This document shows positions 38,011 to 55,805 of a stretch of DNA of 64,000 bases, piece after piece (within the stretch, counting starts at the first letter, position 1; the number at the start of each line of letters is the position of its first letter). The stretch comes from Roseitalea sp. MMSF_3546 (GTDB taxonomy: Bacteria > Pseudomonadota > Alphaproteobacteria > Rhizobiales > Rhizobiaceae), in NCBI RefSeq assembly GCF_030732865.1, contig NZ_JASHKB010000017.1, positions 1 to 64,000 of the forward strand, given 5' to 3'. The translations under genes and the position numbers were made by a program. The notes under the pieces are model-generated. The model had not been told where the DNA came from, searched no databases, and was given only the letters and a program-made list of their open reading frames with translations.

Positions 38011-39294
38011 TCAGAAGAACTTCGTAATCTTTCCAAAAACGAACGAATCTTCATGAGGGATTGCGAATGCCGAGGCAGGCATATCCCAGAATGTCCGGCC
38101 TTCAATCGACAGCAGGAGATCGTCACGTAGCCTTGTCTCGAAATCAACTGACAACGACTTGGCGGCATTGTCGAGATCGTAGGTGAAGCCGGCCTTAAAC
38201 TGTGTCCCGCCGACATCATTAAGGGAGAGGCGCAATCCGCCGAACAGATCGTTCTGGAACGCGGTTGGTGGCGCAAGAGCCGGATTGGAGGGCCGGCCGT
38301 CATAGAGATACTCGCCCAAAAAACCGATGTCGACGCCACCGGCGGCGTCGGTGAAAACTGTGTACTCAAAGCCTGCGACAGTTGCCAGAAAGTCGAGGTT
38401 GTTGGCATGCCGCCAGATCCCCTCGAACTTCAGCTGGAGGTCGCCAGTCGCAAACACCGCGTCGACGCCGACTTGATCCATCACGTCGTAGAACGGCACC
38501 ACATCGGGACCGACCATGACAAAGCGTGGCTCACGGCTTGTGCCATGGAAATATTGGACCCCAAGATCGAGCCCGCCGGCACCAAGGTCGAAATGGTTTG
38601 CATAGCGCGCGGCGAATCCCAGATGACGCGCGGTGCCGCCGGCTTCGAACATCGCCGCGGAATCGTTGATCACCATGGCAGGGCGCAAACGGTCCGCCAT
38701 GTCCGGATGATCCCGTGTCCGAAAGCCGAACATGCCATATACGCTGAACGTACCCGCCCCGGGCGAGGACCAGTTCAAATTCACCATGGGCTGACCGAGC
38801 GCCCGATCCTCGACGACATCGTCGCCCAGATCGCGCTGGTTGATGACATTGACGAGATTTCGCGCCTCGGTCACGCCCCAAAACAGCGTGTGAACGCCTG
38901 CCAAAATGTCCCAGTTGTCGCCGCGATGAAGAATATAGGCATCGCGGAGGTCGATCACGTCGTTATCGGCGCGCAGGTCGAGACGGCCGTAGGGCTCGAA
39001 AACGACGCGATTCTTGCCGTCATCAGATTCATAGTCGAGGCGGACCGAGCCTTCCAACAAGGGCATCAATCCATCGACCTGGCCGGGGAACTGTGGCGGC
39101 CCGAAGTGGAGACGCGCACCGACCGATAACTCGCCGGAAACGCTGACATTGCCACCGTCCGCGGCCTCGATGCGCTCGTTCCCTTCCGACGTTACTGTCT
39201 CCGTAAGGAAATCCGAGGCTCGGCTCGAGAGCATCGAAACGGACAGGGTCAAAATGGCGGCTGCTGCACGATACCCCATTCGCATTGAAAACAT
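38011..39294 (-). CDS. outer-membrane beta-barrel protein of the polyketide operon
   Basis: A 427-residue exported protein with a signal peptide (about residues 1-25, ending SSRA) and a long series of alternating-residue strands rich in Tyr/Phe/Gly, ending in FGKITKFF, the C-terminal aromatic signal of outer-membrane barrels. Segments such as RVVFEPYGRLDLRADNDVID and LRDAYILHRGDNWDILAGVH look like paired porin-type strands. I used the ATG at 39294; a GTG precedes it by one codon. It starts seven bases after the phosphopantetheinyl transferase stop, as last gene of the operon, and could be the outer-membrane exit or docking site for the polyketide product. Family not firmly identified. Confidence 0.78.
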   Translation of the reverse strand: MFSMRMGYRAAAAILTLSVSMLSSRASDFLTETVTSEGNERIEAADGGNVSVSGELSVGARLHFGPPQFPGQVDGLMPLLEGSVRLDYESDDGKNRVVFEPYGRLDLRADNDVIDLRDAYILHRGDNWDILAGVHTLFWGVTEARNLVNVINQRDLGDDVVEDRALGQPMVNLNWSSPGAGTFSVYGMFGFRTRDHPDMADRLRPAMVINDSAAMFEAGGTARHLGFAARYANHFDLGAGGLDLGVQYFHGTSREPRFVMVGPDVVPFYDVMDQVGVDAVFATGDLQLKFEGIWRHANNLDFLATVAGFEYTVFTDAAGGVDIGFLGEYLYDGRPSNPALAPPTAFQNDLFGGLRLSLNDVGGTQFKAGFTYDLDNAAKSLSVDFETRLRDDLLLSIEGRTFWDMPASAFAIPHEDSFVFGKITKFF

Positions 39295-39301
39295 CACCCC
39301 T

Positions 39302-40012
39302 TCAGCAGTCTAATGCTCCCGCCATAGTCGGCAACCTGCACTCTAGGTCAGACCAATCCACACGATATACGCGGGGTTCTGGAGCAGTCGATCGAATCGC
39401 GACGGCACAAACGTACTGGCAGTCGATGTCAATATCCATGACAGATAGCCGGAGATGGGCGGAACGCGCCGTCATGTTGCCCACGGGTAACACCCGAGAC
39501 TCGGCCTTGGCGAGCACGTCGCGCATGGTCAAGCCGAGGCACTTGACCACTGCTTCAAGACGGACCCAAACATCAATGGCGGCACCAGCGCAGGCCGCGC
39601 GCCTTGCGCCAATGTCGTCGCCCATGAGCCCCGAAAGTGCAGTCCGCAGCTGACTTGTCATGGCATCGGTGATGCGCGCCATTCTCCGCACTTCGAGATC
39701 AATCCCGATCGGTCCGCCCTTCGAAATGGCGACAGCAGCGCAGGTGCCGGCATGGCTGATGCTGAATTGTGGCCCCCGCGGCAAGAAAGGCTTGCCGGCG
39801 CCCGAACGCCATAGGCCCTCCAGCGCATCGTGGTCGCAGCCGTCTTGGACCAAGGCGTAACTCAGCAGCAAGCGGGACGCCGTTATAAGGCGCGACCGCA
39901 GTGCCAAATGCGCTCGGTCGTCCTGCCGGTCCGGGGAGCCGGGCACATGGGCCGTGTCCACATTTACGATCCAGATCGTCACCGGCTGTCCGCCCGCCCG
40001 GTCGCCCATCAT
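39302..40012 (-). CDS. Sfp-type 4'-phosphopantetheinyl transferase
   Basis: Adds the phosphopantetheine arm to carrier proteins, here most likely the ACP of the adjacent polyketide synthase. About 236 residues. Motifs: GKPFLP (about 73-78), FSISHAG (83-89), GIDLEVRR with Mg ligands D105 and E107, and WVRLEAVVKCLG (149-160), where the usual W-x-x-K/R-E-A helix reads W-V-R-L-E-A with the third acid E153. The ATG at 40012 has GGGGAG eight bases before it; the frame could open earlier at GTG 40057. The presence of a dedicated transferase beside AcpS (8732-9136) fits a secondary-metabolite carrier. Confidence 0.88.
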   Translation of the reverse strand: MMGDRAGGQPVTIWIVNVDTAHVPGSPDRQDDRAHLALRSRLITASRLLLSYALVQDGCDHDALEGLWRSGAGKPFLPRGPQFSISHAGTCAAVAISKGGPIGIDLEVRRMARITDAMTSQLRTALSGLMGDDIGARRAACAGAAIDVWVRLEAVVKCLGLTMRDVLAKAESRVLPVGNMTARSAHLRLSVMDIDIDCQYVCAVAIRSTAPEPRVYRVDWSDLECRLPTMAGALDC

Positions 40013-40069
40013 CGGCCCTGCTCCCCCGATGGCTGTTGCAGGTGCGCGTGCCCGCACATCGCAGCGGCG

Positions 40070-40828
40070 TCAGCGCGTCAGTTCGAGCGCCCGGGTGGTG
40101 AAGTCACCTGATCGCAACGCGGCGCCAAAGCGGTAATTGCTCCACGTTAGCGTCGTTGATTTGTCAGTCAGCAAATTGCGCATGTGCATCGTGCGTGGCC
40201 GCCATGCCGGGCCGTAGTTGCGATACCCGGAAATATCCATGGTTTTGACCCATGCGTTGCGACGATCGTAATAGTCGATGCGCTGCGGCAGGTTCGTGTT
40301 GCGGTCAAACCAGACAACGTGCTTTGTGTATCCAGACGAAAACCGAGGGTAGCGCTCGACGATGTTGCAGCAAACCTCGGTGCCAACAAGTTTGTAGGTG
40401 AAGCTGTCCAGTTCTTGGTCAACCATATCTTCATAGGCAAATTCGCTGCCTACGAACGCCCCTGAGCGACCCGATGAGCTGATGCGCTTGACGCGCCGGT
40501 TCGCGGCAAGGAAGACCCACTGGCTATCGCGTGCACCGTCCTTGGTATGGGTCAGGAGCGCCGTGCCGCGAATGTCACCGGGCCATTCGAACCGCAGCAG
40601 GCTGCGACTGCCGCCACCGACTTCCAGGCTTTTGAAGTCGAACCGGCGTGTTGCAGTGCCCCCGCCCCTGAGAACCATCTCCCCGCTCGCAGTCAAGCTG
40701 CCATACCCGGTGGTCATCGCATCGGCGCGCCGCGCAAGTTCGTAACCGTGTTGTTCGGCCGACTGCGCGAAGGCCGTCGCCGCGATGACCAGGACGAAGA
40801 AGACGGCCAGAAATGCTCTATTGATCAT
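40070..40828 (-). CDS. LolA-like periplasmic lipid-carrier protein
   Basis: A 252-residue exported protein (signal peptide residues 1-21, MINRAFLAVFFVLVIAATAF) of the outer membrane lipoprotein-sorting-like group (LolA/LppX-type half-barrel). Typical strands: GEMVLRGGGTATRRFDFKSL, SLLRFEWPGDIRGTALL, RRVKRISSSGRSGAFVGSEF with YEDM next, and a long C-terminal sheet. LolA-fold proteins hold lipids in a hydrophobic cavity, and members encoded beside MMPL transporters are thought to carry the exported lipid. An excellent AAAGGAGG ribosome site lies seven bases before the ATG, inside the mmpL stop region (11-nt overlap), so it is made together with the transporter. Confidence 0.85.
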   Translation of the reverse strand: MINRAFLAVFFVLVIAATAFAQSAEQHGYELARRADAMTTGYGSLTASGEMVLRGGGTATRRFDFKSLEVGGGSRSLLRFEWPGDIRGTALLTHTKDGARDSQWVFLAANRRVKRISSSGRSGAFVGSEFAYEDMVDQELDSFTYKLVGTEVCCNIVERYPRFSSGYTKHVVWFDRNTNLPQRIDYYDRRNAWVKTMDISGYRNYGPAWRPRTMHMRNLLTDKSTTLTWSNYRFGAALRSGDFTTRALELTR

Positions 40829-43175
40829 CGATAGGCCTCCTTTCGGCTAGGATGAGCACCGGCGGCAACAACAGCAAGTCGGCCGCAAGAGCCGCGGCGA
40901 TCGTGATCGCACACAGCATGCCGACATGCTGATTGACGGCAAAACCCGATGTCGCCAGAACACCAAATCCCATGATCAGGGCAAGTGACGTTAGAACGAG
41001 CGCCGGGGCGACGGTCGTGAAGGTCTGCCGCACGGCATCGGCCGGCGACAGGCGATCCTGACGGCGCGCCCGCAAGTACTTTATCAGAAAATGCACGCTG
41101 TCATCGACAACGATTCCCAATGTCATAGTGGTGACCACCGAAGACGCAAGATTGACTTGCCCCACCCAAAAGCCCCAGACGCCGAACGCGAGCACCGCCG
41201 GCACCAGATTTGGAAGCAGGCTTAAAAGCCCGACACGGATGTCTCGGAGCACCAACAGCATGATCATCGAAATCAGCACCAGCGCAAAGACGGTCCCACC
41301 GACCATGCTGCGGATATTGCGTTCGGACAGATACGCAAATACCATGGACATGCCGGTCGCTTGGGTGAACTGGTCGGGGGCGTTTTCGATTAGCCATTGC
41401 TCGCCTTGATGGCCCAGTTCGCGTACACGCGCACTCGTGACATCACTTAGCACTGCCGTGACACGCGAATGTGACCGATCAATGGATATGAGAGTGGTCA
41501 GGTCGTGCCCGACAGGCAGGCCAAGCTCGTAGACGAACAGGTTTTCGGCGTTGAGTTCGCGTGTGTCGGCAATGCGGAAGTAGGCGGGGTCATCGCCGTT
41601 GACAGTACGATTGATGCGCTTGAGGACTTCGGCCAAAGAATCCACCGACACGACATCGTCCTGTTCGGCCAGCCATTGGGCAAACGCGTCCACGTTGCGC
41701 AAATAGTCAGGATCAAAGACACCCCCCTCGGTACCGGCGGGAACGGAGTATTCGATAACATTGAGGCCGGTCAGCCGGTCCTCGGTAAATTCGGCCGACT
41801 GGCGGAACTCGAACCGCATGCCGAAGTATCGGATGTAATCGTCATCAAGCGCAATCCGCGAGATGCCGACGGCCGCCAGCGGCAGCAGCATGGCAAACAG
41901 CACGATCAGCGCCCGGCGCCGGGCGATGACAAATTCGCCCAGCCGCTGCATCGCCGGGACGAGCGAGAACCGCTCGGTCATTCGGGGCGGCACGAAGCTG
42001 ACAAGGCATGGAAGTGCGGTCAGGCACAGCATCATGCCGACCACCACGCCGAATGCAACTACGTTTCCTAAATCACGCATTGGCGGCGACGGGCTGAAGT
42101 TAAGGCACAGGAAACCGATCGCCGTGGTCACGCAGGTCACCCCGATCGGCACGGCGTTCTGGGCCCAGGCCCTGATCAGGCTGCGGCGATCATCGCCGGT
42201 CCGGCGCGCAAGACGCAGCCAGGTGGTCAAAAGATGGACGCATGAGGCAAGTGTCAGCACGATGATGCTGACCGGCGCGCCGGCCGTCGCGCTGTTGAGC
42301 AGCATGCCCGCCCAGCCGGCGAACCCCATCGCGGCCGCCGAGGTCGCCGCCAAGACCGCAACCGTCGACACAGTGGCCCAGAACGAGGAGAACCCGATCA
42401 GAAGCGCAAGAAGGGTCAATACGCCCATCACAGGCATGAGCGTGGCCATATCGGCCTGACCGGCCTCGGCGAACGAGACATCGGCAAGGACGCTGCCCGT
42501 CAGCCGGATCTCGAATTGCGGGTGATCCTGACGCCATTGGGCAGCCATGGACCGGGCATGGGCCGCAATCTCGACGACCTTTTCGCCGCCATCATCGGGC
42601 TTGATCACGTTGACGTTGATGCCGACTACATCGCCATTGGGCGAGACCAGGCGATTGAGCAACTCCTCCTGCCCCAATGCGGTTCGGCGGATCTCCTGAG
42701 CACGCTCAATGGTTATCGTTTTTCCAGTCGGCACCAGCGGGTCGAGGAGGATCTCATCGCCTCGGGCGCGGACATTGTTGAAGTTGGCCGGCGAATCGAC
42801 CCGCAAGGTGTTGGGTATCTGCCAGGCCTGTTCGGTCATTTGCGCCAAAGCCATGAGCGCTGCAGGCGTGTATATATCACCGTTTCGGGCAGCGATGACG
42901 AAGAGGACATTGGCCGATGCTGCGTAGGTGTCCTCGAACTCTTGCAGCGCGATGCGCTCTGGATTTTCGGTTCCGAAGAACAGCCTGCTGTCGGGATTGA
43001 AGCGCAGATTGAGCGCGCCGGCGGCAATGACCAGCACCAGCACGGTCGACAGCGCCAGAACGATCCAGCGCGATCGCAGCAATGCCGCCGCGACGCCTTC
43101 AAGCGCGACAGGGTCGATGCGCGGGCGCCACGTTCGGTTTCGCCCGGCCGCCGCATTGGGATGTTCCGCGGTCAT
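40818..43175 (-). CDS. MMPL/RND-family lipid transporter
   Basis: A 785-residue inner-membrane transporter of the RND superfamily, MMPL/sterol-sensing type. It shows two repeats, each one helix, a periplasmic porter domain and five helices: TM1 at about 36-54, porter domain to about 225, TM2-6 to about 385, then a second copy beginning ARRRALIVLFAMLLPLAAVG. The TM4-like segment LGIVVDDSVHFLIKYLRARR carries the acidic pair used for proton coupling. Close functional parallels are MmpL (mycobacterial lipids) and HpnN (hopanoids). It starts 150 bp downstream of the polyketide synthase stop, the largest gap in the operon. Confidence 0.9.
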   Translation of the reverse strand: MTAEHPNAAAGRNRTWRPRIDPVALEGVAAALLRSRWIVLALSTVLVLVIAAGALNLRFNPDSRLFFGTENPERIALQEFEDTYAASANVLFVIAARNGDIYTPAALMALAQMTEQAWQIPNTLRVDSPANFNNVRARGDEILLDPLVPTGKTITIERAQEIRRTALGQEELLNRLVSPNGDVVGINVNVIKPDDGGEKVVEIAAHARSMAAQWRQDHPQFEIRLTGSVLADVSFAEAGQADMATLMPVMGVLTLLALLIGFSSFWATVSTVAVLAATSAAAMGFAGWAGMLLNSATAGAPVSIIVLTLASCVHLLTTWLRLARRTGDDRRSLIRAWAQNAVPIGVTCVTTAIGFLCLNFSPSPPMRDLGNVVAFGVVVGMMLCLTALPCLVSFVPPRMTERFSLVPAMQRLGEFVIARRRALIVLFAMLLPLAAVGISRIALDDDYIRYFGMRFEFRQSAEFTEDRLTGLNVIEYSVPAGTEGGVFDPDYLRNVDAFAQWLAEQDDVVSVDSLAEVLKRINRTVNGDDPAYFRIADTRELNAENLFVYELGLPVGHDLTTLISIDRSHSRVTAVLSDVTSARVRELGHQGEQWLIENAPDQFTQATGMSMVFAYLSERNIRSMVGGTVFALVLISMIMLLVLRDIRVGLLSLLPNLVPAVLAFGVWGFWVGQVNLASSVVTTMTLGIVVDDSVHFLIKYLRARRQDRLSPADAVRQTFTTVAPALVLTSLALIMGFGVLATSGFAVNQHVGMLCAITIAAALAADLLLLPPVLILAERRPIDDQ

Positions 43176-43325
43176 TCAATCAACCCAGACGCTGGCCTCG
43201 TCGCTGTGTCAATCCGCCCCGGGCGATTGCTGAAACCAAGCCGCCGCCATTGCGCGCCGACAGTGGCCCGGGGCATGCACCTCGATCCGAGGTGGTCGTT
43301 GGGGCTCGACACCCGAAGACGGCCG

Positions 43326-46300
43326 TCACTCGTGGTGCTCCATCATCGTTGCCGTGCCATGCGTAAGACTCTTTTCCGATTCCTGGGGCTCATAGGTTGC
43401 GCCGACCTTCAGCTCCGGCGGCTCCACCCCCATTTCCTGCAGGCTTTCCACCGCAAATTGCAGGGCCTCTCCGACTCCATAGGCCGACGGATCCCACATT
43501 GATCGAAACATGCGGCTCTTGCCAGTGTGAAGGCTGCGCCACTGGTATTCGTAACGGGTAACATCGACGAGCGTGGGATGGTGCAGCGGCTCGACCATCA
43601 GGCCGCCAAAGGACGCGCGGGCACCCGGCGCGGCGAACATGACAGGCGCGAGCGGCGAGCGGGCCATCACGGATTTCGGAAACGTCTGGCTGACCTCGAA
43701 TTGCGGCAGATAGGCGCCATCGGCCCTGAGCTGCTCGGCAAGTGCGCGCTGACGGGTGAAATTGCCCGGCGCTCCCATCGCTGCGGCTGCCCTTAGCTGT
43801 TTACCTATGTCACGGGCGACTGCCTCAAGATCATGATATGCGCTAAAATCGCATCTCAGCATGGTCATGTTGGCCACATAACCCACATAGCTCTCTAGCG
43901 CCGGGGTGGTTCGTCCTGCCATCTCGCAATTGACGTAAATGCCATCGGCGCCGCCACGCCGGCAGATTACCGAGGCAAATGCGGCGATCTGAAGTGCCGT
44001 CTCTGTCACACCGGCTCTCCGCAGTCGCTCGTCGAGTTCGCGGTCCGCCCGATCGGACGTCTCAATGTCCAAATTGCCGCTTCTGCCGAAATTCAGGCGT
44101 TCGGAATCGAATTGATCTCCGGATGCCGCCCAACCGATACGTGGCGGCGTCAATGGCGGCAGCAGCGTTGCGCTATAGTGCGCTTGGGCTGCCTGTGTTG
44201 CACCGACGTCACCAACTCGCTCGACCTCCCGCAGATAGCGTTCGAAGGTCATTTCGGGTTTGGGGCCGATCGGCATGCCCATGTAGGCCGCAAAAAGCTC
44301 GTTCATCACAATTGCAAGGCAATAGGCATCGTGGACAACATGATGGCTCCATAAGTGGAACACATCACCATCGGACCCGCAGCGCAGCAACGTAACCCGG
44401 AATAAGGGACCGCTCTCGAAATCAACGTCCGTTCGGCCAAGCTCGCTTAATTGTTCTTCCAGGGCACTGGCCGAAACCGCTCCAAGATCGCGCACGGCAA
44501 ATGCATCGGGCGCATCGGCCGGTATGGTAACGCGCCAATCACCCTCCAGCCTGACAAAGCGCATGCGGAGCGACTGATGCCGCCCGACGACTTGGGCGAC
44601 GGCGCGGCGCAACCGGTCGACATCGAGCCCCGGCCGAATGCGGAGCGCCCGCATGCTGACCCAATAGGCGTTGAGCGAATTACCATTCCTGTTGTCTGGC
44701 CCGATGTTGAGGCATGCCAATTGCTGCGCCGTCACGGGCAGCGATTCCTGCCGCCCATTTGACTTTGGCACTGTGGGCCGCCTAGCCTTTGACGACGCAG
44801 CGCGAATGCCGGATTGGTGCCGGCCCACGGCCCTCTCCTTGGGGTCGAAGCGTTTGATGGCTATTGCCTCGCCCAGCGTTTCAGCAATTGTCTCCAGCAG
44901 CCCGCTTGCGGTTTCCTCGTCGACCACATCGGCGTCAAAGGCCCACAGAAGCTCAAGCGCGCCATCGCGCTCGACCGCCGTCAGGCGGATTTCATTGACC
45001 GCGCGTGTGGCCGCATCGTCAAAAATCGCATCAAGCATGTCCGGGTCGAGGTCGGCGACGGTGGCATGATCGATGAACGCAAAGCCGATCTGCGCGGGAT
45101 TGAGACCGGCCTTGTCGAACCGGTCGGCCAACAACGCGGCACAGGCAGCCGCGTCGAAACGCCGGTGATGCAGGCAGGTGCGCAGGCGGCGGCTGATCGC
45201 ATCGCTGTCCCACTCGTGACCTGCATGGCGCTCGACAAGTATTGGCAGCGCATCGGCAAAGGGCCCAACGACGTCCTGTCGATCCGGCTCGCGACGCACC
45301 AGATCGGTACGCTCTACGATCATCCGATGCTCGCCAAAGCGGCATTCCAACGCGCCCGCCATCGCTGAAAGCAGTCGGCCTTCGGATACGATCGGATCAT
45401 CGGCCGATGTCCAACTTGCGATCCGAGTGCTCAGCGTCACAATGGAGCCCGCATTCCACCCCATGCCGACCGGGGCCGTCGCCCGCGAACGACTGGTGAA
45501 GACGATCGGCTGGGGCAGATCATGCAGGACTTCCTGCCAGAAGGCCTGGTCGCGCAGGCTCGCTTCATTGTCGTCGACCACACAGTCGGAAGCAATGGCA
45601 CAATAGTCGGCCGGGGGCTGCTCGGTCTGCCCTTCGGCCAGTTCCTTCAGCCGCTGCGACACAAATTGAACGGACCAGCGATCGCCGGCCGCCGTGTGAC
45701 AGGCAATGTGGACTTCGGCGCCGTCATCGCGTGAGCGCCAACCGAACCGCCACAGCGCGCCGCTTTGCCCCGAAAGCGTTTCGTCCGGGCCAGGCTCGCC
45801 CAACGGAACAAGGGCCGGCGGCTCCTGCGAGAGTTCGAACGTCGCCTCCGAACCTTGGCCGAGCCGAAGGCGCAGGGCCGGCTGTTCGCGCGCCAGCGCC
45901 TCGAGCGCCGCGCCGACAGCGGACATGGCCACGCCTTGATCCATGGTCAGCGTCGCCCGGAACCACTGGGCGTGGCGCGCCATTTCGGACGACATCAGCC
46001 CCTTGTCGACGGCAATGGCCGCGAGCTGGCGCGGCATGACCGGGAAGGCATCGGGCGCTGCGCCGTCACCCTTCGATTGCGGGCTCGCGGAGAGGCCGGC
46101 CTGCTCAGTGCGCGCCGTGTCGGCTTCGATCGCCCTGACAATGACGTCGGACAGTCCGCCCACGGTCGGAGCCTGCAGGAACTTGCCGACGGGTATCGCG
46201 ATGTCCAGTTCGGCCTCGACACGGTTCTTGAGCTCGAACGATGACAGGGAATCGAGCCCGACCTCGGCAAGGGCACGGTCGAGCGGCACCGAGGCGGCCT

Positions 46301-49300
46301 CGACCTTGAGCACGCGCGCGATCTCGCCCTGGATGAACTCCGAAAGGAGCGCGGGCCACTGGCTCTTGTCCGTTGCGGCGAGCTGGGTGCGAATCTTCGT
46401 GCCGCCGCGTCCGGCGCCGGCCAGCAGACCGCGCATGCGCGGTGCATTCGCGCCGGGGCTGCCCCGGGTGATGCTCTGCCAGTCGACCTTGGCAAAAGCG
46501 GCCGTCGGCAAAGCGCTCATTATGAACTGACCAAGGGCCTCGCAGGCGATATCGTCGCCGATCGGCTTCATCCCGACGCTGTCGAGATAGCTGGCCATCG
46601 CGTCGCTGCGCGCCACAAAGCCTGATTCGCCCAGCGCACCCCAGTCGATCGTCTGTGCCGCCCGGCCCCCGGCGCGACGGTAGCTGGCGAATGCATCCAG
46701 GAACGCATTTGCGGCGACATAGTTGGACTGGCCCTGCGAGCCGATCATCTGCGCAAGCGAGGAGAAGCACACGAAGAAATCGAGCCCGGCGCCCCTTGCC
46801 TCCAGCGCACGGTGCATGTTCCAGGCGCCCTTGATCTTGGGCCGCAGAACGGCGGTGAACTGATCGTCGGTGAGCTGGCCGATAAAGCCGTCCTGAAGCA
46901 CCATGGCGCCATGGACGATGCCGCGCAGCGGCTTGTCGTGCGCAACCAGATCGCCGATCGCCGCATCGACGGCGCGCGCATCGGTGGCGTCGAGCGCCAG
47001 CGGGACGATTTCGGCGCCTTGGGCGCGCATCGCCTCGACGCGGGCGGCGTCCTTGCTTCGGACCGCGCCCTTGCGGCCGGCGAGCACGATCCGGCCGGCG
47101 CCGTTGGCGGCCATCCATTCGGCGACCGCCAGCCCGAAACCGGACAGGCCGCCGGTGATCAGGTAGCCTGCCTCGGCGTCCAGTGGGGCGGGCTTGCGCA
47201 TATCGGTTTGCACGTCCACGTGGGCGTCGTCAAACGTGATGACCACCTTGCCGATATGCTGAGCCTTGGCCATGTGGCGAAACGCTTCAACCACGTCGGA
47301 CACCGGAAAGACAGCTTGCGGCAGCGGCTGATAGCTGCCGTCGCCCAGGCGCTCGGATACGGTTTCGAGCAATTGGGTGATCAGGCCCGGTCTTTCATCT
47401 TCGAAGACCGACAGGTCAACGACATGAAAGCTGTTGTTATAGTAAAGCGATTTCAGCCCGATAGGCTTGTCGGCGAACAGGTCGCGCTTGCCAATTTCAA
47501 TGAACCGCCCGAACGGCGCAAGGCACTCCAGCCCCTTGTCGATCGCCGATCCGGCAAGGGCGTTCAGTACCAGATCGACGCCGCGTCCGCCTGTTGCCTT
47601 GCGGACACCGTCGGCGAAATCGACGCTGCGGGAATCACCGACAAATGCTATGCCCATCTCATTGAGGTATTGACGCTTTTCGGGCGTTCCGGCCGTCGCG
47701 AACACGTTCGCCCCGATGTTGCGCGCCACCTGGATGGCGGCAAGGCCGACACCGCCGGTCGCGGTATGAATCAGCGCAGTTTCGCCTTCGCTAAGTCGCC
47801 CAAGTTCCTCCAATGCATAGCAGGCTGTCATGAACCCGACGGGAAAGGAAGCGGCGTCCGCATAAGAAACATCATTGGCGATGCCCACAACCGCTTCTTG
47901 TTTTGTGATGGCGTAACGGCGCAAAAATCCCTTGCCCATGCCCATGATGCGGTCGCCGGGACGGTACTTCGTGACGCCGGAGCCGACGGCTTTGACACGG
48001 CCCGAATACTCAAAGCCCATATTGCGCCACCAGGCGCCGTCGCCCTCGATCTCGTCGGGCAGGATGCCGGTGGCGACCATGATATCGCGGAAGTTGAGGC
48101 CGACGGCCATCACCTCAATCAGCAGTTCGTCGGGACCCGGCTGCGGCGTCTCGGCCTCCCGCAGCACGATGTTGTCGACCGAGCCGGGTCTGGTCATGGT
48201 GACGACGAAATTGTCGTCGCAGGCCGACAAATCGATCCGGCGCATCCTCGGCGGCAGGTCGGCGGTCTCCATCTGCTGCACCCGCGAGACATGGATGTCA
48301 CCGCCGCGGAGGACAATCTCGGTCTCCTCGCCGTTGGCGATGAGCAAGCGGGCGAGTGTCACCGGTGCGGAAACCGCAGCCCGATCGACGTCGGCCAGGC
48401 GGATATTGAACTCGGGAATCTCGGCAGACAGTGTGCGCGCCAGCCCGACCACTCCTGACTGCGAAAGGCCTGCCTCTGTGAGTGCGTCGCTGTCGGCAGC
48501 GACCCTCGCGCCGTTTGTGATGATCCAATAGGGTCGGGACTTACCGATCTCACGCAACTGGTCTAGCGCCCGGCCGGCATCGGCCAAATTAAGCACATTG
48601 CGCTCGGCTGCCTCGACGAGGTTGTGTGCTGACACCTGTTCATCGAACGCAAGCGAGCGGAGATCAACAATGCCGGCGGGCCGCAAATCATCGTCCAAGA
48701 AGTCGGCAAAGGCCTCCGCAAGCCTGTCAGGACCGCTGTCGGCGATCGGAGCGCCCGAAACGGTCATGGCGGTTGCGCCGCACGATCGCAGAGCCTCGGC
48801 AAGCGCCGCCCCGGGGCCTGACCCGTCATCGAGCACCAGCCAATCGATGACTGCGGTTTCGCTTTTCCCGTCATGGAGTTCGGCGCCAGCAGTCTCGGAG
48901 AGCAAGTCAAGCGACTCGACGTGAAAGACCGGCTTCACGCTGGCAGCTGTCGACGACTGATGAGCAGCCAATTGCTTCATCCTGAAATTGTCGATGGTGA
49001 CCAGCACCTGGCCGTCGGGGCCGGTTATCCGGTAGACACCGCCCATCTCGGTGCTCGAACCGTTCACTGGAACTGTCCTGAAGTCGACCCACATCTGGTG
49101 GGGCAGTTGGTCAACGACGGCAAGGCGTTCGATGCCGATCGGAAGCATCAATGGGAAATGGCCTTCCTCGTCGGTCTCGGGTATGCTCCTGGATGGGTCC
49201 CAGACGCCCGCGTCGATATCGATCAGCGGGATCGGTGCCTGAAAGCAGGCGTCCAACAGGGCCGGATGTGCAATATAGCGCTGTGCACTCAAATCGACGC

Positions 49301-52300
49301 CGTGTGGCGCCGAAACTTTGGCAACGCATCGATCGCCGTCGCACCAGGCCGCGTCGATTCCTTGGAACAAAGCCCCATAATTAAGCCCATGCAGGGCGGT
49401 CAGCCGATAGAAGTCGGACTTGCCAATGGACGGCTCTCGACGCTCAACCATCGCGGCGGCATCGACCCGTTCGGCTTCGAGCGGCCGGCGCAGCACATAG
49501 GCGTCGGCGCGCAGGCGCCAATCTTCCTCGTAATCGCGGGTCCGGCTGTAGATGCGCACGATGCCACGTTCGATATCGAGCGTTGTCTCAAGCATCACCC
49601 AATCGTCATTGCCGATTGACAGCGCGTCAAGGAAGCGGACGTTGCGCAGCTCGACTGGTCCGGCGCCGAAATGGTCGCGCGCTGCGGCAACCATCATCTC
49701 GATGTATCCGGCCGCAGGAAAGACTGCCGATTCCTCGACACGGTGGTCGTTGATGTATCCGAACGCCTTGAGCGTGATCTCATTCGTCCAGGCTGGCGCG
49801 GCTCGGCCGGCACGTCGACCCAGAAGCGGATGGACCTCCGCCGAGAACAGCGTGCGCCTGGCCTCTTCGGGCGAATTCCACAATTCCTCGCGCGCCCATG
49901 GGTATAGCGGCAAGGCCAGGTCGCGGCGGCCTGGACCGGAGTTGATCTTGCGCCAGTCGAGACTGGTTCCGTGCGTGTGCAGTATCGCCTTGGCAACGGC
50001 AAGCGCATCGTAGTCGTCCTGCTCGCGATGCAAAGAATGTACGATCGCCGCATTGATGCCGGCATCGTTGACGATTCCCGCCGTCAGAGGTGCGAGCGTC
50101 CGGTGCGGCCCCATCTCCAGGAACGTGTCGGCGCCGCTAGCGAGAGCGAAGCGCATGGCCTGGTCGAACGCGACGGGCTCGCGTAAGTTTCGCCACCAGT
50201 AGTCCGTGTCAAACCGTGTCTCAAGCCGTCCGGTAACTGTCGAAACGACGGGCAGATTCGGCGTGGACCACTCGATCTCGCCAAGCGTCTTGCGGAACCA
50301 GACCTCGCCGGAATCCAGCTGCGGCCCGTGCCAACCGAAATCCATCTTCAAACGGCGGACCAAGGCGTTGGGGAACTGCGCCTCGACAGCAGCAAGCAGC
50401 CGCTCGACGCCATCGATCTCACCTGACACGGTCTGCAGCGCCGGACCGTTATAGGCCGCAACCACGACACTGCCGTCATCTGGCAGGAAGGCGGCGAGTT
50501 CGTCGACGCTCAGGCCTACTGCGGCCATTGCCCCCACTGATCCGATGGCATCGCGGATCATGCCCCGGGCGTGGATCAAACGCGCGGCGGTCGAAAGGCT
50601 GATCGCGTCGGCAATATAAGCTGCGGCTACCTCGCCGAAACTGTGACCGATCAGCAGGTCCGGCTCAATACCCCATTTGCGCCACAGCGCCATCAGACCG
50701 ATCTGGTTGGCAAAGATCGCCGGCTGGGTAACATCTGCATCGTCGATCCGTGACGAAGCCTCATTGGAGAGCATGGCATCGACCACGGACCAGCCACTTA
50801 CATTTCGGAACAGTGCATCGAATTCGTCGACACTCTGCCGGTAGACCTGATCGCATGTCAGAAGGCGCCGGGCCATACCCCACCACTGGCCGCCCTGACC
50901 GGCAAAGGTGACGGCCAGTTTCCCAGATGCGCGCGCGCGACCGCTCACAAAGGGCGGGATCGCGTATCGATCTTCGGTTGCTTGCTCCTCGCCGGCAGCA
51001 ATCATGTCCAGGCTTCGGCGCAGGTGCTGTCGGTCGGAGGCCAGGACAACGGCCCGCTCGGCGAACTGGTCGCGGTGGAGCGCGAGAGTTGAAGCCAGGG
51101 AAGCGATCGGCTCGGCCGCAAGGCTGCCGTCATCGACCAAGGCCGCCGAAAGATCCGCGGCGACCTGGCGCAGTTGCGGCTCGCTGCTCGCCGAAAGGGG
51201 TACGAGGATCGGGCCAAAGTCGTGGCGGGCGAGCACTGCTCCGGGGGTCAGACGGGCGCGGGCATTGCCACGATCGCCGCCAGACCAGTTTTCCAGCAAT
51301 GCCGAAGCGTTGGTGCCGCCAAAGCCGAATGCGTTGACGGCGGCAAAGCGCGTCGCACCGTCGTGCGATGGAAGCTCAGTCGTCGCCACGGGCACGGCGA
51401 TGTTGAGCGCGTCCATTGGAATCGCAGGATTGGGCGTGTCAAAGTTGCGATTGGGTGGAACCGTACCATGGTAAACCGTAAGCGCTGCTTTAATAAATCC
51501 GCAAATGCCCGCGCCCGATTCCAGATGGCCGACATTGGGCTTGACTGTTCCGACGAGAGCCGGGCCGCCGGGACGGCCGGTGCCAAACACCCGCCCTATG
51601 GCCTTAGCCTCGATCGGATCGCCGATGGGTGTGCCGGTCCCGTGTGCTTCAATGAAGCCGACGTCCACCGGATCAACGGAGGCGCGCCGGCACAGGCCCT
51701 TGAGCATCTGCATCTGAGACTCAAAATTGGGCGCGGTGAGCGTGCTTGTTCGACCATCCTGGTTGACGTTGGTCGCGCGCACGATCGCATAGATGCGATC
51801 GCCGTCCGCGAGCGCTTTGTCCAGCGGCTTAAGCAGCACCGCGCCGACGCCCTCGCCGCGCACGAAGCCGTTAGCGCGCGCGTCGAATGACGATATCTCT
51901 CCGGTCAAGGACAGCATGTTGGCCTTGCTGAACACCACGAACGTATCCGGGCTCAGCATTATGTTGACACCGGCAGCCACCGCGGCGTCGCAGGCACCGT
52001 CAAGAATGCTGCGGCAGGCAAGATCGACCGAAACCAGCGACGATGAGCACGCGGTGTCGACGGCGACCGAGGGTCCGGTGAAATCGAAGCGATGGGAGAC
52101 CCGGTTGGCCGCAATCGAATAAGCAGAGCCTGTGCCTGCCCAGATCTCGTCGGACGAGCGACGCATCCTAAGATTGAGCCCATAATCGCTGGTCGAGATG
52201 CCGACAAAAACGCCAGTGCGCGCGTTCTGCGCTTCGGCGATAGTGGTTCCGGCGTCCTGAAGCGCCTCATAGGTGGCCTGAAGCAGCAACCTTTGTTGCG

Positions 52301-52589
52301 GGTCCATTGAGGCCGCTTCTCGTGGGGAGATGTCAAAGAACCCCGGGTCGAAACTGCGAACATCGTCGAGAAAGCCGCCCCATTTGGAGGTCGATTTGCC
52401 AATCGCCGATGGATCAGGATCGAAGGCAGCCGTAAGGCTCCACCGATCCTCGGGGATCTCACGGATCCCTCTTCCTTTCTCGTTGAGGAAACGCCAGAAC
52501 GACCCAGGGCTTTCCGCCCCGCCGGGGAAGCGGCACCCAATGCCAACCACAGCAATGCCATAGCCCGATCCCGATACCGTCGCGTCCAT
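43326..52589 (-). CDS. type I polyketide synthase KS-AT-DH-ER-KR-ACP with two C-terminal condensation-like domains
   Basis: A 3087-residue fully reducing synthase. KS 10-435 (C181 in VDTACSSSL, H316 in EAHGTGTPIGDPIE, H355 in KPNVGHLE). AT 557-860 (S650 in GHSFGEVAAA; the substrate-pocket tetrad reads FGWH at 751-754, neither the malonyl HAFH nor the methylmalonyl YASH form). DH 918-1210 (H949, D1113). KR structural part about 1225-1450. ER 1465-1787 (LNFRDIMV, GGVGLAAIQVA). KR 1805-1995 (YLITGGLSGFG, S1943/1944, Y1957). ACP 2080-2155 with S2114 in GLDSLSSFEL. Condensation-like C1 2185-2580 has CHTAAGD (2297-2303) where HHxxxDG is expected; C2 2615-3040 has an intact HHVVHDA (2749-2755). No methyltransferase, thioesterase or adenylation domain. 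One elongation module of this type can work iteratively, making a saturated chain; C2 probably releases it by esterification or amidation to an acceptor. AGGGA lies nine bases before the ATG. Confidence 0.93.
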   Translation of the reverse strand: MDATVSGSGYGIAVVGIGCRFPGGAESPGSFWRFLNEKGRGIREIPEDRWSLTAAFDPDPSAIGKSTSKWGGFLDDVRSFDPGFFDISPREAASMDPQQRLLLQATYEALQDAGTTIAEAQNARTGVFVGISTSDYGLNLRMRRSSDEIWAGTGSAYSIAANRVSHRFDFTGPSVAVDTACSSSLVSVDLACRSILDGACDAAVAAGVNIMLSPDTFVVFSKANMLSLTGEISSFDARANGFVRGEGVGAVLLKPLDKALADGDRIYAIVRATNVNQDGRTSTLTAPNFESQMQMLKGLCRRASVDPVDVGFIEAHGTGTPIGDPIEAKAIGRVFGTGRPGGPALVGTVKPNVGHLESGAGICGFIKAALTVYHGTVPPNRNFDTPNPAIPMDALNIAVPVATTELPSHDGATRFAAVNAFGFGGTNASALLENWSGGDRGNARARLTPGAVLARHDFGPILVPLSASSEPQLRQVAADLSAALVDDGSLAAEPIASLASTLALHRDQFAERAVVLASDRQHLRRSLDMIAAGEEQATEDRYAIPPFVSGRARASGKLAVTFAGQGGQWWGMARRLLTCDQVYRQSVDEFDALFRNVSGWSVVDAMLSNEASSRIDDADVTQPAIFANQIGLMALWRKWGIEPDLLIGHSFGEVAAAYIADAISLSTAARLIHARGMIRDAIGSVGAMAAVGLSVDELAAFLPDDGSVVVAAYNGPALQTVSGEIDGVERLLAAVEAQFPNALVRRLKMDFGWHGPQLDSGEVWFRKTLGEIEWSTPNLPVVSTVTGRLETRFDTDYWWRNLREPVAFDQAMRFALASGADTFLEMGPHRTLAPLTAGIVNDAGINAAIVHSLHREQDDYDALAVAKAILHTHGTSLDWRKINSGPGRRDLALPLYPWAREELWNSPEEARRTLFSAEVHPLLGRRAGRAAPAWTNEITLKAFGYINDHRVEESAVFPAAGYIEMMVAAARDHFGAGPVELRNVRFLDALSIGNDDWVMLETTLDIERGIVRIYSRTRDYEEDWRLRADAYVLRRPLEAERVDAAAMVERREPSIGKSDFYRLTALHGLNYGALFQGIDAAWCDGDRCVAKVSAPHGVDLSAQRYIAHPALLDACFQAPIPLIDIDAGVWDPSRSIPETDEEGHFPLMLPIGIERLAVVDQLPHQMWVDFRTVPVNGSSTEMGGVYRITGPDGQVLVTIDNFRMKQLAAHQSSTAASVKPVFHVESLDLLSETAGAELHDGKSETAVIDWLVLDDGSGPGAALAEALRSCGATAMTVSGAPIADSGPDRLAEAFADFLDDDLRPAGIVDLRSLAFDEQVSAHNLVEAAERNVLNLADAGRALDQLREIGKSRPYWIITNGARVAADSDALTEAGLSQSGVVGLARTLSAEIPEFNIRLADVDRAAVSAPVTLARLLIANGEETEIVLRGGDIHVSRVQQMETADLPPRMRRIDLSACDDNFVVTMTRPGSVDNIVLREAETPQPGPDELLIEVMAVGLNFRDIMVATGILPDEIEGDGAWWRNMGFEYSGRVKAVGSGVTKYRPGDRIMGMGKGFLRRYAITKQEAVVGIANDVSYADAASFPVGFMTACYALEELGRLSEGETALIHTATGGVGLAAIQVARNIGANVFATAGTPEKRQYLNEMGIAFVGDSRSVDFADGVRKATGGRGVDLVLNALAGSAIDKGLECLAPFGRFIEIGKRDLFADKPIGLKSLYYNNSFHVVDLSVFEDERPGLITQLLETVSERLGDGSYQPLPQAVFPVSDVVEAFRHMAKAQHIGKVVITFDDAHVDVQTDMRKPAPLDAEAGYLITGGLSGFGLAVAEWMAANGAGRIVLAGRKGAVRSKDAARVEAMRAQGAEIVPLALDATDARAVDAAIGDLVAHDKPLRGIVHGAMVLQDGFIGQLTDDQFTAVLRPKIKGAWNMHRALEARGAGLDFFVCFSSLAQMIGSQGQSNYVAANAFLDAFASYRRAGGRAAQTIDWGALGESGFVARSDAMASYLDSVGMKPIGDDIACEALGQFIMSALPTAAFAKVDWQSITRGSPGANAPRMRGLLAGAGRGGTKIRTQLAATDKSQWPALLSEFIQGEIARVLKVEAASVPLDRALAEVGLDSLSSFELKNRVEAELDIAIPVGKFLQAPTVGGLSDVIVRAIEADTARTEQAGLSASPQSKGDGAAPDAFPVMPRQLAAIAVDKGLMSSEMARHAQWFRATLTMDQGVAMSAVGAALEALAREQPALRLRLGQGSEATFELSQEPPALVPLGEPGPDETLSGQSGALWRFGWRSRDDGAEVHIACHTAAGDRWSVQFVSQRLKELAEGQTEQPPADYCAIASDCVVDDNEASLRDQAFWQEVLHDLPQPIVFTSRSRATAPVGMGWNAGSIVTLSTRIASWTSADDPIVSEGRLLSAMAGALECRFGEHRMIVERTDLVRREPDRQDVVGPFADALPILVERHAGHEWDSDAISRRLRTCLHHRRFDAAACAALLADRFDKAGLNPAQIGFAFIDHATVADLDPDMLDAIFDDAATRAVNEIRLTAVERDGALELLWAFDADVVDEETASGLLETIAETLGEAIAIKRFDPKERAVGRHQSGIRAASSKARRPTVPKSNGRQESLPVTAQQLACLNIGPDNRNGNSLNAYWVSMRALRIRPGLDVDRLRRAVAQVVGRHQSLRMRFVRLEGDWRVTIPADAPDAFAVRDLGAVSASALEEQLSELGRTDVDFESGPLFRVTLLRCGSDGDVFHLWSHHVVHDAYCLAIVMNELFAAYMGMPIGPKPEMTFERYLREVERVGDVGATQAAQAHYSATLLPPLTPPRIGWAASGDQFDSERLNFGRSGNLDIETSDRADRELDERLRRAGVTETALQIAAFASVICRRGGADGIYVNCEMAGRTTPALESYVGYVANMTMLRCDFSAYHDLEAVARDIGKQLRAAAAMGAPGNFTRQRALAEQLRADGAYLPQFEVSQTFPKSVMARSPLAPVMFAAPGARASFGGLMVEPLHHPTLVDVTRYEYQWRSLHTGKSRMFRSMWDPSAYGVGEALQFAVESLQEMGVEPPELKVGATYEPQESEKSLTHGTATMMEHHE

Positions 52590-53361: not shown

Positions 53362-53543
53362 GATCTGTTGCGCATCACCGGGCGGCGTGTCCAACTGGAA
53401 CAATGCATGCCGAGGAGCCACGTCGTCGGACGTCGAAACGAACAGTTGGCCCTTGTCTGCGTGGCGCCGGCGGACACGTCATCCCGTCCGCTCTCTAAAC
53501 CTTGAATGCCGGGTAAAAGGTCGTTGCCGCCCAGCGTCACCGG

Positions 53544-53831
53544 TCAATCATCGATCGAACCGAAGCCGACCTGGAAGCGCACATAACCGCTGATGCGGAT
53601 GCAGGTCTCGGTCGACCCGATCTTCTTGAAACCGGTCCCGGCGCGCTCGCATGCCTCAACGGCCTCCGGGTCTGTTTCCGCGATGACCGTATCGCCCTGT
53701 TCCGCCTCGGGCAGCTGAAGCTGGTCCTTGATGTCCCAATCGGCGTCCGTGGCAAGCGCCATCGGAGTCGAAGCCACAGCTATTGCAAAAGCCATAGCGG
53801 CAATCGGTTTTGTTGCTTTCTTGTCAAACAA
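53544..53831 (-). CDS. miniature porin-like exported protein
   Basis: A 95-residue protein starting at TTG 53831, which has GGAGA seven bases upstream (an ATG at 53882 in the same frame is possible but leaves no clean signal peptide). Signal peptide about residues 1-27 (ending PMALA). The mature part ends ACERAGTGFKKIGSTETC then IRISGYVRFQVGF, which is the N-terminal Cys-x(n)-Cys plus first-strand signature of Porin_2 porins: the full porin next door has [18 protein letters not shown] then [11 protein letters not shown] at the same place. The frame stops seven residues after the first strand. It is either the 5' remnant of a duplicated porin gene or a real small protein made from a porin start. 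Confidence 0.6.
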   Translation of the reverse strand: MFDKKATKPIAAMAFAIAVASTPMALATDADWDIKDQLQLPEAEQGDTVIAETDPEAVEACERAGTGFKKIGSTETCIRISGYVRFQVGFGSIDD

Positions 53832-53940
53832 GGCAGATCTCCAATCTCCAACGTGCACTGCGCCCAGCACCTTTCCGATCATCTGGCATGGACCGACAAG
53901 TCACGCAAGCACTGGCCAATCACATCGAACGAAAACCCGG

Positions 53941-53974
53941 ACAAAGAAAAGACCCGGCGGTCGCCCGCCGGGTC
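53941..53974 (-). terminator. rho-independent terminator of the porin gene
   Basis: On the minus strand, GACCCGGCGG, loop GCGA, CCGCCGGGTC, then TTTTCTTTGT: a perfect 10-bp stem followed by a T-rich tract, starting 29 bases after the porin stop codon. Confidence 0.9.
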
Positions 53975-54002: not shown

Positions 54003-55805
54003 TTAGAAGGAACCTTCAAAGCGCAGGAAGCCCGCCCAGCCATCGACCTTGGCAATACCGTAGTCGTAGCTCTGGTACTGAAGGTCGGCCTTGATGTCGA
54101 AGCCCGGAACCAGCTCGTGGTCCACCGTGATGCCTGCTTTCCAGCCGTCATCGTTGAAGCCGGTTGCATCACCCCAGGTCTGGCTACCGACCAGGAAGCC
54201 GTTCAGGTACTGACCGCCGACGGTAACGGTGGTCGCTTCGGTCGCATCGAAGGCAACGCTTGCGGCAGCCGACCATTCATAGTCGTTGTCGTAGAAGCTC
54301 TTGCCCGAGTTGTAGATGCCCATGGCCTGGAAGGTGGCGGCGCCAAAGCCAGCCGAAGCGATCAGCTTGGCACCCCAGGCATCGTCGTCCTGACCGTTGA
54401 CCCACGTCCCGGCCGGACCGGCACGCATGACGCTGTTCTGAACCAGCGCATCGTTGCTGCCGCCAGCATCGTAGTCATCGTAGTAGGCGAAACCGGTCAT
54501 GGTGATGCCGCCGAGCTCGACCATCGCCTTACCGACGATATTCGGCATGTAGTCGACATTGTTGTCTTCGTTTTCGATCGACAGTCCGAACGACGATGCG
54601 CCAGCATCGAAGGTGTAACGGATGTGGTTGATATCCGCACCGCCCGACTGATCGAACTCGCCGTTGATGCCACCATCCCACAGCGTATCATCATAACCGA
54701 GCTGCAGGCCACCGAGACCGATCGTGGCTTCCTGAAGACCCAAATCGCCGCCGGCAGTACCGCCGAGCTGCATACGGGTGGTCAGAGCGCCGAGCTCGGA
54801 ATCGTTCCAGGTTTCGACGACAAGGCGGGCCGAGGTGGTGGTGTCCCAACCGTCATTGGTGGTCGTCGGCTGGAAGCCGAGCAGGCCGGCAGCCGTGCCA
54901 ACTGCGGCACCGGTTGCGTTTGCCCACGCAGCGTCATTGTCGAACCCGACCAGGCCATCGAACACACCGATATCGCCAAGCGTCCACAGCAGCTGCTGGT
55001 AACCAGCATTGCCAAGATTGGCCTTCAGATTGGCGATCACGTCATCGGACAAAAGGTCGATGGCTGTTGGAACGATCGGCAGAAGGAAGGTCGGATCGAG
55101 AACCAGCGTCGCCTTCAGGGCAGCTTCGAGCTGCGCATAATACGCATCCGCCTGAAGACCCGTGAACTCTTGTGCCAAGCCGCCAGGATTGTTGACGTTG
55201 TATTCTTCGCCCAACAGACCAAAGACGTCACCCTGATTGGCAGGAACCTGATCGTTACCAGCCGGCGTCAGGGCCGAAGCACCGGCGCCTACTGTGTAAT
55301 AAGCCTGAGCCGCGGGCGTCAGAGCCTGAAGGATGGCAAGTGCACTGGGATTATCGACAGGGCCAGCATCATCAGGAACAGTGAAGTTCAGACCCGATGT
55401 ATCGAACGCGTCATAGTAGTTGAAATAGATCAACGCAGCCTGCCCAACACCGGCCGCCTTCGTCAACGTAACCGACGAACCGGGAGCTGCCGGCGGGGAC
55501 TGCAGACCGTCTTCGATCGTTGCAGGCAAGATCGAATTGAAGGAGAACCCTTCCTGAACTGCCGCCACGCCGGCAGGATCGATGTCAACATCGAGGTCCG
55601 ACGCGTCGATCTGCATGCGCACATAGCCTGAGAACTTCAGGCAGACTTCCGTGCCGGGAATATACCAATAGCCGGTGCCGGCCGCGTCGCAGACACGGAC
55701 ATATTCCACCATTTCCGGCTCGGGGATGATGATGTCGGCGGCCATCGCCGACGGTGCAGCGATCAGAGCCGCCGCCGAGCCGAGAAGAAGGCTCTTGATT
55801 TTCAT
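54003..55805 (-). CDS. porin (Porin_2 family) with a large insertion
   Basis: General diffusion porin of the outer membrane, 600 residues, family of Brucella Omp2 and rhizobial RopA-like porins. Signal peptide [20 protein letters not shown] (cleaved after AMA), then [20 protein letters not shown] with the two conserved cysteines and the first strand [13 protein letters not shown] (about 56-68). The last strand ends [11 protein letters not shown] with the terminal Phe. Relatives have about 340-420 residues; here about 245 extra residues (70-316), with helical, Ala/Gly/Asn-rich character, separate strand 1 from strand 2 ([20 protein letters not shown]). A GGAGG site precedes the ATG by seven bases, and a strong terminator follows. 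Confidence 0.9.

Follow-up and report, generated by a model that had tools for sequence, protein, structure and literature searches.

What is a fully reducing polyketide synthase (PKS) doing beside the parts of a transport system for a Gram-negative envelope? The question is posed by five open reading frames, all on the minus strand, that run from position 52589 to position 38011 of a 64-kb window, by which we mean the whole stretch of DNA analyzed here (positions 1 to 64,000 of contig NZ_JASHKB010000017.1 from Roseitalea sp. MMSF_3546). Read in that order, they encode a PKS, a transporter of the MMPL/RND (resistance-nodulation-division) type, a LolA_like protein, a phosphopantetheinyl transferase (PPTase), and an outer-membrane protein (OMP). 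A first reading of the window, made from the sequence alone, had placed five minus-strand genes at these positions, and the list of open reading frames bears this out. Our answer is that the five genes form a real, recurring operon, a variant of the widespread MMPL-LolA-OMP export cassette that has a PKS added to it. We consider it likely, if well short of certain, that the operon serves to synthesize and export a lipid.

The genes are closely packed. The PKS gene (43326..52589; 3087 amino acids, in the order KS-AT-DH-ER-KR-ACP-C1-C2 by Pfam and motifs) is separated by 150 bp from the transporter gene (40818..43175; 785 amino acids), which overlaps by 11 bp the gene for the LolA_like periplasmic protein (40070..40828; 252 amino acids). 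If the longest open reading frames give the starts, 12 bp then separate this gene from that of a divergent Sfp/AcpT-like PPTase (39302..40057; 251 amino acids), and a further 4 bp lie before the gene for the OMP (38011..39297; 428 amino acids). The sequence-only reading gave the four distances as 150, -11, 57, and 7 bp. The first two are exact; the last two hold with later in-frame ATG codons as starts (40012 for the PPTase, 39294 for the OMP). Within the 150-bp gap, a terminator scan of the minus strand finds no terminator-like site. Such sites stand at chance level (16 found against 14.2 expected), and a single strong hairpin is the only one used below; the sigma-70 promoter scan is likewise at chance level (2 found against 3.8 expected).

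The same genes are found together elsewhere. Genome G364 has PKS, MMPL, LolA, PPTase, and OMP genes in an order identical to that of the window, the PPTase matching ACPS at 1.5e-05. Within the genus of G364, three of seven genomes have the PKS (G364, G897, and G899), and in the latter two the MMPL gene directly follows it. Plasmid pDSM109990_a of Sulfitobacter dubius has the order PKS-MMPL-LolA-galE-OMP, preceded upstream by genes for a Mur-ligase protein and for two condensation proteins; no PPTase was recognised near this PKS locus. Sulfitobacter sp. DSM 110093 has two plasmids with a PKS at 98.5% identity, each time followed by MMPL. Genome G639 has, in order, PKS, a condensation protein, a sulfotransferase (PF13469, 4.3e-30), MMPL, LolA, and OMP. 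The core order PKS-MMPL-LolA-OMP is common to the window, G364, the Sulfitobacter plasmid, and G639, with a PPTase inserted before the OMP in the first two and galE inserted before the OMP in Sulfitobacter. A different order, LolA-OMP-MMPL-PKS-C, is seen on contig 5 of genome G191, where a PPTase-like gene lies on the opposite strand. The sequence-only reading knew of no system with exactly this set of genes. This claim falls, as all five genes recur in unchanged order in G364, and the Sulfitobacter plasmid has the PKS, MMPL, LolA, and OMP together with a separate C2-type enzyme.

How far does this exceed what a random neighborhood would give? Nine PKSs of this condensation-ended type, that of the window among them and called PKS-C here, form one clade. 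An MMPL gene adjoins the PKS, or lies no more than two genes away, in seven of the nine: the window, Sulfitobacter, G364, G897, G899, G639, and contig 5 of G191. Outside the clade, 16 fully reducing PKS loci from the class (L175-L190) were seen with flanks of 0-8.8 kb per side, and none has a cassette match. Seven of nine against none of 16 gives a Fisher value of 7e-05; rows inside one genus are not independent, and by lineage (a grouping of our own, in which the second count keeps two paralogue pairs apart) the comparison is 5/7 against 0/12, with p 0.002. The control comprises those 16 of 23 non-clade PKS places that were fetched with flanks, leaving out G133, G389, G457, G379, G285, G465, and G175. 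In six of these seven genomes the scored MMPLs, two each, are on other contigs than the PKS; G133 has no MMPL at 1e-80. Some of the clade members (Sulfitobacter and G639) were found via their MMPL, which favours adjacency. Those found via the PKS or its C-terminal part (both G191 loci, G364, G331, G897, and G899) have the MMPL in four of six cases, G364 having been found both ways. The sequence-only reading had proposed that the operon be taken for a chance neighborhood if homologues of its PKS rarely sat beside the other genes; the comparison just given is that test, and the operon withstood it.

Phylogenetic trees carry the argument further. In a KS-AT tree of 25 rows (L182, which has no KS-AT, was left out), the nine PKS-C rows form their clade with support 98/96. 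Here, G331 branches outermost, followed by contig 5 of G191, then by the G364 genus (81/73), and then by the window paired with contig 16 of G191 and Sulfitobacter paired with G639. A mixture-model tree of 49 MMPL proteins branches as the PKS tree does, joining the window to Sulfitobacter and G639 at 99 and adding G364 at 97. These 49 were drawn from 132: two long-branch rows were taken out, and the 36 nearest rows, one in eight of those remaining, and all linked to a PKS were kept. A FastTree of 131 MMPL rows groups the same four with support 51; proteins shorter than 600 amino acids, and two lost in trimming, were dropped from the MMPL rows. The LolA tree (91 rows) unites the four with support 59, and the window with Sulfitobacter and G639 at 97. 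The last three also stand together in the OMP tree, at 95. Because of these PKS, MMPL, LolA, and OMP trees, and because of the placement of the G191 contig 5 set discussed below, the PKS and the cassette appear to have been inherited mostly as one unit, in an association that probably arose more than once. Two loci have a megasynthase and a cassette seemingly joined separately, that on contig 5 of G191, with its other gene order, and an NRPS-PKS (nonribosomal peptide synthetase-PKS) locus in genome G744. The view that the window holds an operon-like unit is supported to this extent: the unit is kept across distant alphaproteobacteria, with co-occurrence and tree agreement beyond chance.

The transport genes have a wider distribution of their own. 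Judged by homology, MMPL-LolA-OMP is a widespread export cassette, mostly without a PKS. Relatives of the MMPL protein at E<=1e-80 are found in 60 of the 385 genomes searched from the class and in 39 of the 398 from the phylum; at E<=1e-30, they are found in 5 of 101 relatives of the window. Each tally counts G000, and the large-set searches scored 2-6 candidates per genome. Outside G000 there are 123 distinct MMPL places, two of them in tandem in one stretch, making 122 stretches. Of these, 120 were fetched (G495 and G738 were left out); together with 12 earlier ones they make 132 stretches, the window excluded. A LolA match lies near the MMPL in 97 of these and an OMP match in 87, where near means in the same stretch; both counts are lower bounds, as many stretches stop at contig ends. 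A scan of named genomes gave six MMPL matches (five in Nitrosomonas, one in Thiotrichaceae), with no PKS match in the stretches seen.

What, then, might the synthase make? Pfam reads the 3087-residue protein as KS, AT, DH (in two halves), ER, KR, ACP, and one condensation stretch (residues 2643-2935). All on the minus strand, these are the KS (51294..52556, active-site DTACSSS), the AT (49968..50906, GHSFG), the DH (48951..49832), the ER (47238..48137, TGGVGLAAIQ by reading of the sequence), the KR (46629..47168), and the ACP (46140..46337, with the serine of GLDSL). The motifs of the KS, AT, KR, and ACP are all intact. The DH keeps HPALLD; its first motif, HRVEESAVFP, has E at a position normally occupied by G. 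This is a single fully reducing module, as in the Pks2/MAS family. The best match among solved structures is mycocerosic acid synthase (MAS; 9d2y, 971 bits over residues 12-2164), and the best NCBIfam model is Pks2 (NF041183, 1202.3 bits over residues 12-2150, below its cut-off of 2400). No thioesterase is among the Pfam matches. The AT tetrad aligned with YASH of DEBS, the methylmalonyl-type tetrad, is FGWH, which is neither of the two textbook tetrads; the methylmalonyl-type tetrad is not present. A prediction of the extender unit was given up, as FGWH is non-canonical.

The sequence-only reading saw two condensation domains at the C-terminus. One of these, C2 (43440..44663, HHVVHDA), is found by Pfam (PF00668, 6.9e-35) and keeps the HHxxxD motif as HHVVHD. 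The nearest PDB entries to a profile built from seven C2-type sequences are NRPS condensation domains; among the 60 of 70 PDB matches shown for this profile, there is no Pap protein. The other, C1 (44730..46079), is recognised by profile alone, and as a degenerate domain. Its profile aligns with that of C2 at 98.4 in hhalign and matches PDB condensation domains weakly, at best at 0.00025. C1 was rejected as an ordinary condensation domain, since a single-sequence search gave no relevant PDB match and HHxxxDG is absent; it is kept as a degenerate relative with the motif CHTAAGD. Domains related to C1 end the PKS in Sulfitobacter and G639, where the H-xxx-GD pattern is kept, and precede C2 on contig 16 of G191, which has HFSVADD. 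In Sulfitobacter and G639, C1 is the last domain of the PKS, and a protein of its own nearby, with HHxxxDG, represents C2. Because C2 is fused to the PKS in some loci and is a separate neighboring protein in others, this arrangement argues that C2 acts on the PKS of its own locus. One C domain each was found in G364, on contig 5 of G191, and in the compared part of the G331 PKS (3615 residues, about 1000 C-terminal ones being outside the analysis).

The transporter matches Pfam MMPL at 1.1e-25; its best NCBIfam model is HAE3 (TIGR00921, 158.5 bits against a cut-off of 351.9), and the actinobacterial MmpL model TIGR00833 gives 91.8 bits, below its cut-off of 874.7. The LolA_like protein matches PF17131 at 1.3e-47 and DUF1329 at 6.5e-10, its sole Pfam matches at 0.001, and its two best solved matches are 3bk5 (7.2e-46) and 4Z48. 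Its N-terminus reads like a signal peptide; by eye it has no lipobox cysteine, and it does not match the LppX Pfam family. Both assignments of the sequence-only reading, transporter and LolA-like protein, are upheld by these matches.

Neither the PPTase nor the OMP has a Pfam match. The PPTase is supported by a weak AcpT match (5.7e-05) and by motifs that it shares, in an alignment, with four PPTase-like genes that neighbor sister PKSs. Enzymes of the Sfp/AcpT type have metal ligands D, E, and E and a WxxKE motif. In the window, IGIDLE and WVRLEA keep the acidic D, E, and E positions and replace the KE lysine, which varies in this group (WTAKEA in the neighbor on contig 5 of G191). Homologues of the OMP make up a group present in 86 of 134 cassette stretches, the window included, so that it has 85 cassette relatives. 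Its AlphaFold model is a beta-barrel (pLDDT 63, pTM 0.60) whose best Foldseek matches are porins, with TM about 0.45 and root-mean-square deviation about 10 A; an OMP alignment searched against PDB profiles gave 0 matches. Modeling makes it a porin-like beta-barrel, and we claim no closer assignment. The barrel of the sequence-only reading stands, and its PPTase stands as a putative one.

Taken together, these parts suggest a mechanism. The PPTase would arm the ACP with its prosthetic group. The single fully reducing module would then iterate on an acyl starter to give a long saturated chain; these steps are proposed because the domains are intact. Because such transfer is the chemistry of condensation domains, C2 would hand the chain to an acceptor through a hydroxyl or amine group, with the degenerate C1 assisting, perhaps in docking or gating. 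The MMPL protein, driven by the proton gradient, would lift the product from the inner membrane, the LolA_like protein would shield it across the periplasm, and the outer-membrane barrel would take it over, to be inserted or exposed there. We infer iteration, saturation, transfer, and the direction of transport from what is known of the protein families, and we infer also the length of the chain, the acceptor, and the surface location of the product.

An analogy is offered by mycobacteria. Their sulfolipid-1, phthiocerol dimycocerosate (PDIM), and acyltrehalose loci combine Pks2 or Mas with Pap acyltransferases, with MmpL8, MmpL7, or MmpL10, and with LppX, which has the LolA fold. The operon shares with these loci a single reducing module of the MAS/Pks2 type, a condensation-fold acyltransferase, an MMPL protein, and a LolA-fold carrier; its relative in G639 has a sulfotransferase as well. 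Unlike them, it has a Gram-negative outer-membrane barrel, a LolA protein of PF17131 without a lipobox, a transporter nearest HAE3, and condensation domains that are fused to the PKS and nearest the NRPS type, with no fatty-acyl-AMP ligase seen. Membership of the mycobacterial Pks2 and MmpL families was rejected, as the NCBIfam cut-offs are not reached. Because the PKS and the transporter fall below these cut-offs, and because the LolA protein belongs to another Pfam family, the operon is best described as working like the mycobacterial MAS/Pks2-Pap-MmpL loci without being one of them; the resemblance is an analogy, not the kinship of whole systems. The sequence-only reading had joined PDIM logic to Gram-negative parts. 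The logic finds support in a PKS nearest MAS among solved structures and in parts that reach from the inner membrane through the periplasm to the outer membrane; kinship of the whole system does not. In mycobacteria, MmpL7 is reported to bind its PKS (PMC1238737).

The transport half also has counterparts in Gram-negative bacteria. AmeABCD of Castellaniella defragrans is described as a monoterpene efflux system with an HAE3 RND transporter, and deletion of AmeABCD lowered tolerance; AmeA is assigned to DUF1302 and AmeB to DUF1329, AmeC is the fourth gene, and 3BK5 and 4Z48 are named as solved members of the AmeB superfamily (PMC6394551). The transport half of the operon resembles this kind of cassette. 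In both, genes for an RND transporter, a LolA-superfamily protein, and an OMP form one cassette, and no solved structures match the operon's own LolA protein better than 3BK5 and 4Z48. Compared with the Ame set, the operon differs in having a PKS, an OMP without a Pfam match, and a LolA protein mainly of PF17131; the window has no AmeC-like fourth cassette gene and no DUF1302 match. BstA (the bacterial sterol transporter) and HpnN (for hopanoids) are likewise RND-type lipid transporters of Gram-negative bacteria. Their models match the MMPL protein weakly, at 22 bits against a cut-off of 1400 for BstA and at 88.8 against 751.85 for HpnN (TIGR03480). Aryl polyenes, heterocyst glycolipids, and other polyketide-derived envelope lipids of Gram-negative bacteria also place a polyketide-type chain in the envelope through dedicated genes. 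The synthases and exporters of these systems, as far as is known, differ from those of the operon.

Several observations weigh against a lipid synthesis-and-export operon. Contig 16 of G191 has PKS-C1-C2 and a PPTase with no cassette within flanks of 1.9 and 7.7 kb, and none of the five MMPL matches of that genome is on this contig. The PKS of G331 has a PPTase-like neighbor and no cassette in the stretch seen; the best MMPL of the genome, at 3.8e-28, is not a close one. None of the four further genomes from the genus of the window has an MMPL at E<=1e-30. The G364 OMP groups apart from the other three, and long-branch warnings attach to the Sulfitobacter and G639 rows in the OMP and FastTree MMPL trees. 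The MMPL protein of contig 5 of G191 is placed elsewhere in the tree, on a long branch and in an unsure position, and because of this placement the joining of PKS to cassette looks separate there. In the C domain of that same PKS, EQVVIDG replaces HHxxxDG, and the domain may be weakened. A KS-AT match is found in 4 of the 132 MMPL stretches (those of the Sulfitobacter dubius plasmid, of G364, of G639, and of G744 with its NRPS-PKS), and because the cassette is usually without a PKS, it can carry cargo other than a PKS product. Among the scanned neighbors of the operon, no acceptor gene or fatty-acyl-AMP ligase was recognised, which is a gap in the model.

These facts invite other explanations. 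Perhaps the PKS and a general exporter of hydrophobes are two independent neighbors by chance. The cassette is, after all, common without a PKS (KS-AT in 4 of 132 stretches), and two of nine PKS-C rows are without the cassette. Chance does not, however, account well for seven of nine against none of 16, for matching PKS and MMPL trees, for one core order in four lineages, or for at least one further joining (contig 5 of G191). Searches in both directions, from PKS to cassette and from cassette to PKS, together with the trees, led us to reject it, and we give it scarcely any credence; the cassette is nonetheless not specific to the PKS. A second alternative keeps the operon and changes its product, having it make a hydrophobic natural product, such as an antibiotic, a signal, or a surfactant, that diffuses away or leaves in vesicles and is no structural surface lipid, with the cassette as the efflux route. 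It is unlikely, and has points in its favor. AmeABCD, the nearest characterised cassette found, is described as serving monoterpene efflux (PMC6394551); the same kind of cassette adjoins a thioesterase-bearing NRPS-PKS in G744; and the Sulfitobacter system is borne on a plasmid, as accessory products often are. A long acyl chain on an acceptor, however, is what a single MAS-like reducing module with a condensation-type ending fits, no thioesterase is among the Pfam matches of the PKS, and the sulfotransferase gene that adjoins the one for the C protein in G639 brings an amphipathic lipid to mind.

The transport itself might also be read differently, with the cassette importing, or with the PKS product modifying some other envelope molecule at the inner membrane that the cassette then carries. 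The direction of transport cannot be read from sequence, and in Thalassolituus, one protein with both MMPL and LolA-like domains is reported to increase on long-chain alkanes, as does a porin-like protein, and the authors took up the two in their discussion of alkane transport (PMC6304351). Against this, the synthase is cytoplasmic and within the same operon. Those RND/MMPL proteins whose direction is known move their substrates outward, and we hold this alternative to be quite improbable. The synthesis and export of a lipid by the five genes remains the explanation that we prefer.

A broader view can be built on it, namely that the alphaproteobacteria have an undescribed class of outer-membrane polyketide lipids, sulfated in some lineages, that are made and moved by a transferable five-to-seven-gene operon, independent in origin of the PDIM and sulfolipid loci and working like them, with a dedicated route for a bulky lipid from MMPL protein to LolA-type carrier to barrel. 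We advance this tentatively, as it is a little more apt to fail in some part than to hold in whole. This gene set is not described in the literature searched, which took in few subscription papers and no bioRxiv preprints. Should the view hold, the combination of a PKS, a condensation acyltransferase, and an MMPL protein in mycobacterial lipids would be a convergent design. The synthase gives a product that can be sought by mass spectrometry, tied to a widespread cassette with few known cargoes. Cargo, carrier, and barrel can be tested together in cultured Sulfitobacter dubius DSM 109990, where the operon is plasmid-borne and which is not known to be a pathogen.

How the operon came to the window is suggested by its composition. 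Its G+C content is 62.2%, against 67.3% in the preceding 38 kb and 68.6% at 60-64 kb, and the low-G+C stretch extends to about 58 kb. Because of this low G+C, of the absence from congeners, and of the plasmid carriage in Sulfitobacter, the evidence points to a horizontal gain. On the upstream side, the one strong terminator-like hairpin (53951..53974, minus strand; 10 pairs, 9 of them G-C) lies 3' of a porin gene, which it likely separates from the PKS transcript. That gene (54003-55856, minus strand) adjoins the operon and encodes a long, diverged Porin_2 protein of 617 amino acids; its first 89 or so residues match congener porins at 67-81%, and the sole match reported for the remainder is at 31%. 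Between it and the PKS, a short, stop-ended fragment resembling a porin N-terminus (53540-53840, minus strand) looks by eye like a remnant.

Some features of related loci deserve record. In Sulfitobacter, the Mur-ligase family protein between a condensation protein and the PKS (L018, 5410-8475) has 1021 amino acids, and Pfam finds nothing in its long N-terminal part; it is possibly an acceptor-making enzyme. The G744 locus (L149) has an NRPS-PKS hybrid (nitroreductase, KS, C-A, TE); next to it come a gene for a DUF2306 protein, the MMPL-LolA-OMP cassette, and a gene for an AMP-binding enzyme. Among the 134 cassette stretches, the largest further homology group occurs in 34, and is TetR-like by one scanned representative. 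A 23.9-kb Pseudoalteromonas plasmid (L019) carries the export cassette adjoining the GmtY/GmtX genes of a mobile trio.

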